Shown in pieces: positions 32,886 to 37,267 of a stretch of DNA of 64,000 bases. Each line of letters opens with the position of its first letter. Within the stretch, counting starts at the first letter, position 1. Both the position numbers and the translations under genes were made by a program. The notes below the pieces were generated by a model. It did not search any database and had not been told where the DNA came from. It saw only the letters and a program-made list of their open reading frames with translations. Source of the DNA: Phenylobacterium sp. (GTDB lineage: Bacteria; Pseudomonadota; Alphaproteobacteria; Caulobacterales; Caulobacteraceae); NCBI RefSeq assembly GCF_030698145.1, contig NZ_JAUYNW010000080.1, positions 85,554-149,553 of the forward strand. Direction: 5' to 3'.

Positions 32886-33305
32886 ATGCCGATGACCGCC
32901 CTCGAAGGCTGGCATGACTATATGAAGACCCATGATCACGCGGCGCTGCGGGCGCTGCTGCATCCCGAAGTCGTGTTCGAAAGCCCCGTCGTGCACACGC
33001 CGCAGCGCGGGCGTGAGATCACGCTCAAGTACTTGGCTGGGGCCAGCAACGTGCTGGGCGGTCCCGGCTTCAGGTATGTCGGCGAGTGGCGCAGCGACAA
33101 CGGCGCGGTGCTGGAGTTCGTGAACGAGGTCGAGGGGATCACGATCAATGGCGTCGACATCATCACCTTCAACGACGACGGAAACCTGATCACCCATTTC
33201 AAGGTGATGGTGCGCCCGCTCAAGGCGATCAACCTGCTGCACCGCCTGATGGGCGAGCAACTGGCGATGGCCGCAAGCCCTAGCGCGCCGCCGCCACGCT
33301 CTTGA
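32886..33305 (+). CDS. NTF2/SnoaL-like fold protein
   Basis: The ATG at 32886 has AGGAGAC upstream and is preferred over an in-frame ATG at 32832. The 139-aa product reads MTALEGWHDYMKTHDHAALRALLHPEVVFESPVVHTPQRGREITLKYL, then the paired strands of an NTF2-like cone (GFRYVGEWRSDNGAVLEFVNEVEGITINGVDIITFNDDGNLITHFKVMVRP). Such proteins are small isomerases, hydrolases or ligand-binding proteins; no catalytic set can be assigned. It may be the last gene of the Rieske operon (71 bases downstream of the transporter). Its 3' end overlaps the convergent M20 gene by 26 bases. Confidence 0.8.
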   Translation: MPMTALEGWHDYMKTHDHAALRALLHPEVVFESPVVHTPQRGREITLKYLAGASNVLGGPGFRYVGEWRSDNGAVLEFVNEVEGITINGVDIITFNDDGNLITHFKVMVRPLKAINLLHRLMGEQLAMAASPSAPPPRS

Positions 33306-34689
33306 TCAGCCGGTAGTCGAACTCCACCGCCTCGCTGAAGGCCTTGGTGGAGATCCGCTCGTCCCGGCCGTGGGCGCGGTTGTCATCTATGTCGCCCCAG
33401 ATCGCGCCGACCGCGTAGCTCGGCATGCCCACGGCGCGGGTATAGAGGCTGTCGGTGGCGCCCAGGTCCATGTGCGGCGCGACCGGTACGCTGGGCCACA
33501 TGCCCTGGACCACCTTGGTGAAGCGCGCCATCAGAGCCGCGTCGTAGGGCGAATCCCGCGCCGGGGCGGCCGGAGAAATGACGCTCACGGCGATCCGCTG
33601 ATCGGCCAGCACCTCGACCAGCTTGGCGCGCACCTCAGCCTCGCTGTCGGTCGGCATCATCCGACACTGGATGACGGCCCGGGCGCGCTGGGGCAGGGCG
33701 TTCTCCGCGTGGCCGCCCGACAGGCCCGTAGCCACGCATGTGGTCCGCAGCCGCGCATTGCGCGCCGGAGTGGCGCTCAGGCGCTCGGCGGCGGCCAGGT
33801 CGGTCGGCTGCTTGGATACGGCCAGCATGTCGGCGGTCGCCTGGCCGCTCTCGAGCGCCGCGGCGGTGGCGAAATAGCCTCGCGTCGTGGGGGTGGTCAC
33901 CACGGGGAACTTGAAGCCCTCGATGCGGGCCAGGCCCTTGGCCAGCCTGTAGATCGCGTTGTCGGGCTCCGGGATCGAGGAGTGGCCGCCCTTGTTGGTC
34001 GCCTCGAGCTGGAAGGTGACATAGACCTTCTCGCTGGTCTGGACCCCGTAGGACAGCCGCTGGTCGCCGCGCAGCGATCCGCCGCCCCCGTCGCTGTTGA
34101 TCACCAGGGCCGCGTCCACCAGTGGGCGCTGGGCCTTCAACAACCACTCGACGCCGTTGGCGTCGCCGCTCTCCTCGTCGCTGGTGAAGGCGAAGATCAT
34201 GTCGCGGGCTGGGATGAAGCCCTCCCGCTTGGCGCGGATCAGGCCGGCCAGCAGGGCGGCGATCTCGCCCTTCATGTCCTGCACGCCGCGGCCGTAAAGC
34301 CAGCCGTCCTTCTCGGTGAGGGCGAAGGGCTCGACCGTCCAGTCCTCGCGCTTGGCCTCGACCACGTCCAGGTGGCTGATCCACAGCACGGGCTTGGCCT
34401 TGGCCGCCTTGGCCCGAAGCCGCACCAGCACCTGTCCCTGGGTCGGATGGCCGGGAATCGTCAGCACCGTGACGTCTGTGGAGGCGAATCCCGCCGCCAG
34501 CATCCGCTTCTGGATCGCTTCGGCCGCGGGGAGGGTGCCTTGGTCGTGCACCGTGTTGATGGCGATGAGCTCACCCAGGATCTCGCGGGCCAGGGTTAGG
34601 TTCGCCGCCGGCGGGGTCTGGGCCCGGGCCGAGGCGCCGAGCAGAGCCGCGGCGCAGAGCCCCGCGCCCAGGAGTTTTCCGTAGGTCAT
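33280..34689 (-). CDS. Exported M20-family metallopeptidase
   Basis: The ATG at 34689 was chosen because GGTGGGG lies six bases upstream. The product of about 469 aa has a signal peptide (YGKLLGAGLCAAALLGASARAQ). M20 zinc motifs: SHLDVV, GRGVQDMKGE (bridging Asp), TSDEESGD (Glu-Glu) and a late AHGRDERI His. A dimerisation lid domain lies between about residues 200 and 310. It is predicted periplasmic and likely a di-/carboxypeptidase of the ArgE/CPG2/PepV superfamily. The region before its start contains a 35-bp tandem repeat whose units duplicate its own ribosome binding site. Confidence 0.88.
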   Translation of the reverse strand: MTYGKLLGAGLCAAALLGASARAQTPPAANLTLAREILGELIAINTVHDQGTLPAAEAIQKRMLAAGFASTDVTVLTIPGHPTQGQVLVRLRAKAAKAKPVLWISHLDVVEAKREDWTVEPFALTEKDGWLYGRGVQDMKGEIAALLAGLIRAKREGFIPARDMIFAFTSDEESGDANGVEWLLKAQRPLVDAALVINSDGGGGSLRGDQRLSYGVQTSEKVYVTFQLEATNKGGHSSIPEPDNAIYRLAKGLARIEGFKFPVVTTPTTRGYFATAAALESGQATADMLAVSKQPTDLAAAERLSATPARNARLRTTCVATGLSGGHAENALPQRARAVIQCRMMPTDSEAEVRAKLVEVLADQRIAVSVISPAAPARDSPYDAALMARFTKVVQGMWPSVPVAPHMDLGATDSLYTRAVGMPSYAVGAIWGDIDDNRAHGRDERISTKAFSEAVEFDYRLIKSVAAAR

Positions 34690-34696
34690 CACCATC

Positions 34697-34833
34697 CCCA
34701 CCGTTCACGCACCCGTCCCAGGTGCTGGGCCCCACCGTTCCCGCGCCCGTCCCCGGGCGCAGGGCCCCACCGTTCACGCGCCCGTCCCCGGGCGCAGGGC
34801 CCCACCGTTCACGCGCCCGTCCCGGGCGCAGGG
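34697..34833. repeat. Four tandem copies of a ~35-bp repeat upstream of the M20 gene
   Basis: Units begin CCCACCGTTCACGCGCCCGT and end CGGGCGCAGGGC, at 34697-34730, 34731-34765, 34766-34800 and 34801-34833. Lengths are 34, 35, 35 and 33. The two central copies differ at one base. Each contains a GCGCCCG...CGGGCGC dyad. Unit length is not a multiple of three and there are no spacers, so it is neither coding nor CRISPR. Confidence 0.9.
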
Positions 34834-34970
34834 AGTGTGGGTGGGCGGCTGGAGCCTGTCCACGCCCGACGTGTCACAGAAGAGACGAAGTCTGCAGCGA
34901 GGATGCCGATCCAAGGCGGGGGCCAAACCAAACACTAAGGGCGCGGCGTCTCGTGGCCCCGGAGACCACG

Positions 34971-35714
34971 ATGCCGCCGGACGATCCGCCCAGCCCCTAC
35001 GCGCCCGCCAACAACCCCTGGGGTCGCCAGCCCCAGCCGGTTTTCCGCATTGGCCCCCTACCGAAAACGCCCGCCCGCCCGCCCGAGCCTCGGACATTGC
35101 CGCCGGCCCCGGCTTATGTCGCGCCGATGCCGTCGCCTTCCGGACGCCCGGGGATCCTTGCCGGATCGCTCGTCCCCACGCCGACGAGGCCCGCGGCGCC
35201 CGAGCCTGCGCCGCGTGCGCCAGCTGCCCCGGTGGAAGCCGTCGAACCAGCCGCCCTCGCATCTACGCCGCCGCGCGCCATCCGAGAGCAGGCTAGGGTC
35301 GCGTCAAACAGGCGGGCGTGGCTGGCCGTGGGGGCGGGCGGGCTGGCGATCGCCGCCGCGACGGCCGTGGTGATGCTGGCGGCCCGCCAGGGCTCCGTGG
35401 CGGCGGTCCGCGTGGCCGCGCCTGCGCCCGTGGTGGCCCCGGCCGCCGCCGCTCCCACGCCCGCCATCGCGACGCTCCCGGCGCCCATGCGCCAACCCCC
35501 GGCGCGAGCCGCCACAGCTACGCGCGTCCGCGCCGCCGTCGGGCCACGCTCGCCCCCGCCGATCCCGATAGTCCCGCCGCCCCTGACGCCGCCGCCAGTG
35601 GGGGCCGAACCGGTTGCCCCGGTCCCCGTCGTTCCGCCGTCCGGCCCCGTCATCCTCGCTCCGCCGCCCGACCCGGAGGCGCCTATGAGCACCCGGACGA
35701 CCGACGACCGCTAG
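34971..35714 (+). CDS. Pro/Ala-rich single-TM protein of unknown function
   Basis: The ATG at 34971 (GGAG upstream) is preferred to the longer frame that runs through the repeats. The 247-aa product has a Pro-rich N-terminal half (about 105 residues, PPSPYAPANNPWGRQPQPVF), one membrane helix (AWLAVGAGGLAIAAATAVVMLAA), and a Pro/Ala/Val-rich C-terminal half (PPPIPIVPPPLTPPPVG). Disordered arms on both sides of one helix suggest a periplasm-spanning or scaffold protein. Low complexity in a high-GC genome makes homology hard to judge; the strand and start are supported by the clean TM. Confidence 0.55.
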   Translation: MPPDDPPSPYAPANNPWGRQPQPVFRIGPLPKTPARPPEPRTLPPAPAYVAPMPSPSGRPGILAGSLVPTPTRPAAPEPAPRAPAAPVEAVEPAALASTPPRAIREQARVASNRRAWLAVGAGGLAIAAATAVVMLAARQGSVAAVRVAAPAPVVAPAAAAPTPAIATLPAPMRQPPARAATATRVRAAVGPRSPPPIPIVPPPLTPPPVGAEPVAPVPVVPPSGPVILAPPPDPEAPMSTRTTDDR

Positions 35715-36367: not shown

Positions 36368-37267
36368 ATGCTCGACAACAAACGACTGACCCCTTTCATC
36401 GCTCTCATTGGCGCGGTTGCGCTGATGGCGAGCGTGCCGGCGTTCGCGCAGGAAGCCGCCCCGGCCGCTCCCGCTGCTGACGCCGCCGCCGCGGCTCCGG
36501 CCGCTGATGCCGCCGCGGCTCCCGCCGCGGACGCTGCGGCTCCCGCCGCCGACGTCGCCCCCCCGACCATCGAGCATGCCGGTTCGTTGACCGTCGTGCA
36601 GATGTTCCTCGACGCCCAACCCGTCGTGAAGGTCGTGATGATCGGCCTGATCCTGGCCTCCATCCTCTCGTGGACTCTCTTGGTCACGAAGATGATCGAG
36701 TTCAGCTCGCTGAACAAAGCCTCGGACGCCTTCGTTGAAGCCTTCCGCGGCGCCAAATCGATCAACGACATGGGCCGGATCGCGATGTCCGACGAATTCG
36801 AAGGCAACCCGCTGGCCGACATGGCCGCCGCGGCCGCCCAAGAAGTCGAACTCTCGCGTCAAGCGGGTCTCGCCGTCACCGGCGCGCACCGTGAAACCAC
36901 GATCCACCGGGCGGAAGCCGCAGTCAGCGCGGTCCAGTCCAACCTCTCCAAGCGCCTGTCCAGCGGCATGCAGTTCCTGGCCTCGGTCGGTTCGTCCGGT
37001 CCGTTCATCGGTCTGTTCGGCACCGTCTACGGGATCATGAACTCGTTCATCGGGATCGCGAACACCAACACGACCAACCTGGCCGTCGTCGCCCCCGGCA
37101 TCGCCGAGGCGCTGCTGGCCACCGGTATCGGCCTGTTCGCCGCCATCCCGGCGGTTATCTTCTACAACTACTTCCAGACCCGCATCTCGGCTTACGGCGC
37201 GCGGACGGACGGGTTTGTGGCTGAACTGATGAACGCCATTTCCCGGCAGCTCGACAAAGGAGCCTAA
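36368..37267 (+). CDS. exbB: ExbB proton-channel subunit of the TonB energising complex
   Basis: The 299-aa product belongs to the MotA/TolQ/ExbB family. It has an N-terminal signal-like segment ending FAQ, an Ala/Pro/Asp linker (about residues 29-62, repeats of APAADAAA), then three TM helices (VVKVVMIGLILASILSWTLLVTKM; FLASVGSSGPFIGLFGTVYGIMNSF; ALLATGIGLFAAIPAVIFYNYF) with the conserved GPFIGLFGTVYGIM block. ExbB pentamers with ExbD convert proton-motive force into TonB movement. An N-terminal extension of this type is common in alphaproteobacteria. exbD starts five bases after its stop. Confidence 0.94.
   Translation: MLDNKRLTPFIALIGAVALMASVPAFAQEAAPAAPAADAAAAAPAADAAAAPAADAAAPAADVAPPTIEHAGSLTVVQMFLDAQPVVKVVMIGLILASILSWTLLVTKMIEFSSLNKASDAFVEAFRGAKSINDMGRIAMSDEFEGNPLADMAAAAAQEVELSRQAGLAVTGAHRETTIHRAEAAVSAVQSNLSKRLSSGMQFLASVGSSGPFIGLFGTVYGIMNSFIGIANTNTTNLAVVAPGIAEALLATGIGLFAAIPAVIFYNYFQTRISAYGARTDGFVAELMNAISRQLDKGA

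Follow-up and report, generated by a model that had tools for sequence, protein, structure and literature searches.

Bacterial intergenic minisatellites, or VNTR loci, consist of short non-coding units that follow one another head-to-tail at one locus, where they have expanded in a particular lineage, and such loci are defined by their variation between strains. Mycobacterial MIRU elements are tandem units ahead of genes, dispersed over many loci, and in Moraxella catarrhalis repeats are known from the leader of uspA2. Tandem repeats between promoter and start codon have been described in Moraxella (PMC4679880), and marine Beggiatoaceae carry TAACTGA direct repeats, with a 7-nt unit, in 169 sets over the genome (PMC4679880). 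It is also well known that repeats in promoters change expression (PMC3899988). Here we describe an array of four units directly ahead of a gene for an M20/M25/M40 peptidase in a 64-kb window, the whole stretch of 64,000 nucleotides of a Phenylobacterium genome that was analyzed. The array is a further case of a kind that is already known.

The array shares with VNTR loci the short head-to-tail units, the non-coding position and the lineage-specific expansion at one locus. Whereas those loci are defined by strain variation, the Phenylobacterium array was compared here through one genome per species. In the uspA1/uspA2 leaders of M. catarrhalis the repeat tract likewise stands between promoter and start codon, the promoter in our case having a presumed position; those tracts are poly-G or made of short units and their phase variation has been shown, whereas ours is made of 35-bp hairpin units and is known from sequence alone. 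The Beggiatoaceae repeats resemble the array in being tandem direct repeats near start codons that overlap the place of the ribosome binding site, and differ from it in unit length and in number, ours having one locus and a dyad unit of 35 nt. As in MIRU elements, tandem units stand before a gene, and in some units a short GTG...TGA frame overlaps the GTG of the next; the difference lies in the many loci of MIRU against one here and in unit B, which breaks the GTG/TGA chain. A chain of leader peptides through GTGA overlaps, as suggested by units D and C, was therefore rejected, being broken at unit B (GGGAAC); the lack of a clear Shine-Dalgarno sequence ahead of each GTG also disfavors it.

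Tandem repeat analysis (TRF) returned a single strong array for the window, spanning 34696-34833 with a period of 35, 4.0 copies, 92% matches and a score of 227. The tandem array of about 35-bp units reported in the initial annotation is thus real, its start (34697) having been placed one base off. Scores for periods of at least 15 peaked at 86 in 20 Markov-1 random sequences of 64 kb with matching dinucleotide composition, and the array is therefore not due to chance. The background of arrays was surveyed over 464 kb of the source genome and 375 kb of the relative G051; in the former, all other arrays whose period is not a multiple of three scored at most 66, apart from one 166-bp repeat. This 166-bp repeat (L099:348-694, contig C94) has 2.2 copies and many CTCCCCC/GGGGGAG dyads, and resembles a dispersed repeat of intergenic regions.

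Read on the minus strand, the units lie head-to-tail in the order D, C, B, A, with D farthest from the M20 gene and A nearest to it, and the gene-proximal end of the array is 6 bp upstream of the conserved M20 ATG (Table 1). With at least three head-to-tail copies, a unit within about 10-100 bp and a score above chance, the array is a tandem minisatellite. All four units share the 3' end GAACGGTGGGG. A GCGCCCG/CGGGCGC dyad had been assigned to every copy. A dyad is indeed present in all four; the exact form is found only in B, C and D, and unit A holds the variant GCACCTG/CGGGTGC, in which one pair is altered on both sides and another is altered to a T-G wobble.

Table 1. Coordinates of the array, its units and the neighboring features in the window.
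Feature	Position	Strand	Description
M20/M25/M40 peptidase gene	33280..34689	-	Pfam PF01546 5e-29, PF07687 4e-12
GGTGGGG (end of unit A) and ATGGTG spacer	34690..34702	-	Shine-Dalgarno place; aligned with GAGGG(G)A and CAGTC of the relatives; weak match
Unit A, gene-proximal	34696..34729	-	34 bp, CCCAGCACCTGGGACGGGTGCGTGAACGGTGGGG; dyad GCACCTG-GGA-CGGGTGC; end GAACGGTGGGG
Unit B	34730..34764	-	35 bp, CCCTGCGCCCGGGGACGGGCGCGGGAACGGTGGGG; dyad reaches 10 pairs through GTGAAC to GGGAAC
Unit C	34765..34799	-	35 bp, CCCTGCGCCCGGGGACGGGCGCGTGAACGGTGGGG; dyad GCGCCCG-GGGA-CGGGCGC
Unit D, gene-distal	34800..34833	-	34 bp, CCCTGCGCCCGGGACGGGCGCGTGAACGGTGGGG; dyad GCGCCCG-GGA-CGGGCGC
Conserved upstream block	34834..34900	-	GCAGACTT.GTC..TTCTRTGAC ... 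GTGGACAGGC ... CCCACACT; alignment with G051 and G076
Divergent Pro/Ala-rich protein gene	34971..35714	+	tblastn 46-49% identity, E ~1e-57; same place in both relatives

By BLAST, the array sequence occupies a single place in its own genome, and the dyad 18-mer occurs elsewhere in the genome at control level, 13 times as compared with 15 for a reversed control. The array is therefore not a dispersed repeat family, and a REP- or MIRU-like intergenic repeat was rejected on these results. A search of 299 genomes of the family with the array gave 14 weak matches of 22-58 nt besides its own locus. Only the match in G051 is the orthologous leader; the remaining ones look like GC-rich chance matches. 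Rfam held no relevant family, the only match being a sub-threshold one to a miRNA model, outside the array.

The conserved start of the M20 gene is the ATG at 34689 (MTYGKLLG...), as fixed by alignment with the relatives, in which GGTGGGG-ATGGTG-ATGACCTACGG of the window stands opposite GAGGGGA-CAGTC-ATGGGTTACGG of G076. Four candidate in-frame starts lie within 15 bp on the minus strand (GTG GGG ATG GTG ATG, 34687-34701); among them only the last ATG is conserved in the relatives, and the in-frame GTG and ATG just upstream are not. The N-terminus, judged by eye, is signal-peptide-like, and the peptidase is probably exported or secreted. The product of the divergent gene has a probable membrane segment and no Pfam match. 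Its frame is open on the plus strand through most of the array (34722-34970), giving a spurious-looking ORF of 330 aa, and automatic annotation may place the start of this gene too far upstream. An ExbB-like gene follows; its Ala/Pro-rich N-terminal part contains repeats of about 21-24 bp, in multiples of three, at 36457-36554, which are coding and hence unlike the leader array in kind. The conserved block outside the array is presumed to be a promoter or leader region. It has no match to the sigma-70 consensus, and a scan for sigma-70 promoters and terminators found none. Part of the array itself could fall within the promoter.

An M20 gene whose protein is 86% identical occurs in only two of 101 genomes of the genus, G051 and G076, the latter a Phenylobacterium MAG (NZ_JAUYOJ010000093.1); the next-best M20 genes in the genus are at most 70% identical and have unrelated upstream sequence. 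Both relatives retain the divergent gene and the conserved block GTGGACAGGC...CCCACACTC. The distance from CCCACACTC to the ATG is 39 and 41 nt in the two relatives as compared with 143 nt here, and the excess of 102-104 nt matches three units (34+35+35=104). Exactly one unit-length segment lies between CCCACACTC and the ATG in G051 and in G076. In the alignment, the single unit of G051 reads ACCTGGGGCGGGCGCGTCGAGG where unit A has ACCTGGGACGGGTGCGTGAACGG; unit A has kept the CCTGGG of the relatives, and neither relative has the same dyad in its unit. These comparisons used single-unit alignments; MAFFT on the full array matched the relatives to unit D and opened gaps arbitrarily.

Since both nearest relatives have one copy between conserved flanks, a single copy is the simplest ancestral state, with expansion in the present lineage, and the array may most simply be read as a single-copy leader segment that went from one to four. 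The single copies found at this place, with conserved flanks, in G051 and G076 point to an origin by local duplication. The claim of a multiplied leader segment beside the M20 gene is borne out, and copy number is not identical in all relatives: one genome per species being compared, it is four against one and one between species.

Units B, C and D look recent, because they differ from one another by at most one substitution and one loop base; four or five substitutions separate unit A from them. Most of the substitutions that distinguish the copies improve the pairing of the dyad, one change being two-sided. Read by parsimony, the ancestral stem would have contained one A-C mismatch along with a T-G wobble. 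The mismatch would have been mended by C to T in unit A and by A to G in units B, C and D, where the wobble would have been turned to C-G. The single change in unit B lengthens the stem to ten pairs. Compared with randomly placed substitutions in a post hoc test, the gain in pairing gave p<1/3000 for the parsimony ancestor and p = 0.002-0.004 for an alternative ancestor with G at the ambiguous place. The test is only suggestive because register and ancestor were picked after viewing the data. The changes fit template switching at a quasipalindrome, together with hairpin-driven slippage, or selection for the hairpin. In E. coli, quasipalindromes are known hotspots of template-switch mutation (PMC7202029).

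The initial annotation took the units for copies of the ribosome binding site. GGTGGGG at the end of unit A does stand at the Shine-Dalgarno place of the relatives, but it is a weak Shine-Dalgarno sequence. The best 9-mer within a unit pairs with the anti-SD at about -6 kcal/mol, and the best terminal match, GGATGGTGA, reaches -9.8 kcal/mol through bases that lie beyond the unit. Downstream of the inner copies comes CCCTGCGCC, with no start codon at a usable SD distance; these copies are thus not extra working ribosome sites and would be decoys at most. An effect of copy number on transcript folding had also been proposed. The predicted cost of opening the SD region drops from 6.7 kcal/mol at one unit to 3.9 at two, and then stays at 3.7-4.5 kcal/mol up to six units (4.0 at four, 3.8-4.5 at five or six). 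Since the cost is flat beyond two copies, an action through folding has little support past the first duplication. In the predicted folds the GGTGGG end pairs with the 5' CCC of the unit in A, C and D. The fold energies of single units, compared with shuffles, have z values of -0.8 to -1.5, with unit B at -2.9.

Could the array be a selected regulatory leader, whose stacked hairpins and repeated GGTGGGG tune M20 translation or mRNA stability with copy number as the dial, in the manner of 5'-leader repeats of phase-variable genes? Its place directly upstream of the start codon, the improvement of the dyad between copies and the pairing of the GGTGGG end would suit such a leader, and there are precedents in the promoter-to-start-codon repeats of Moraxella (PMC4679880) and in promoter repeats that alter expression (PMC3899988). 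We consider it the leading alternative but unlikely, as predicted accessibility hardly changes between two copies and six, the relatives do with one unit that lacks the same dyad, and single-unit fold energies are unremarkable except for B. A peptidase of an environmental species is moreover not a typical contingency gene. A selected dial of this kind, in which the four hairpin/GGTGGGG units act on translation or mRNA stability of an exported peptidase, with strain-variable copy number and a hairpin kept by selection, seems quite improbable.

An assembly artefact or a wrong copy number would be conceivable in a 147-contig draft of 90.8% completeness and 5.1% contamination, given that assembly often collapses or expands short tandem arrays. 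The units, however, are distinct (A differs from the other three, B by a single base, and the loop length is 3 or 4), the array is about one short-read length and hence resolvable, and collapse would hide copies rather than create distinct ones, which makes an artefact very unlikely. Palindromic units about 35 bp apart between divergent genes also recall an operator array, in which a dimeric regulator bound to the 7-bp-arm dyad would control both the M20 and the divergent genes; with a dyad that is neither conserved in the two relatives nor above control elsewhere in the genome, we find this highly improbable. The plus frame that is open through the array from 34722 almost certainly does not make it an N-terminal extension of the divergent protein: neither the length of the units nor that of the flank indels between relatives is divisible by three, and similarity to the relatives begins at residue 2 of the protein read from ATG 34971.

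The array is probably a young minisatellite that arose by replication slippage at a hairpin, followed by template switching within an imperfect palindrome. After the split from the nearest sequenced relatives, a hairpin-forming 34/35-bp piece of the M20 leader, spanning the dyad and the weak Shine-Dalgarno region, would have been tandemly duplicated to four. Slippage at the hairpin is the likely route of duplication, and template switching inside the imperfect palindrome may then have perfected the dyads, although selection for the hairpin would be expected to yield the same improvement. The array is most likely transcribed within a longer 5' leader of stacked hairpins, in which only the last copy would stand at the start codon. 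The effect on expression would probably be mild, through a longer and more structured leader, altered mRNA stability or promoter spacing.

The expansion is probably an ordinary kind of feature, and it would be relevant to gene regulation only with a copy number that turns out to vary and to influence expression. The locus is a clean, polarised example, from one to four, of a multiplied gene leader in which most mutations between copies sharpen the palindrome, and it can serve as a small case of how slippage at hairpins and template switching act in a GC-rich bacterium.
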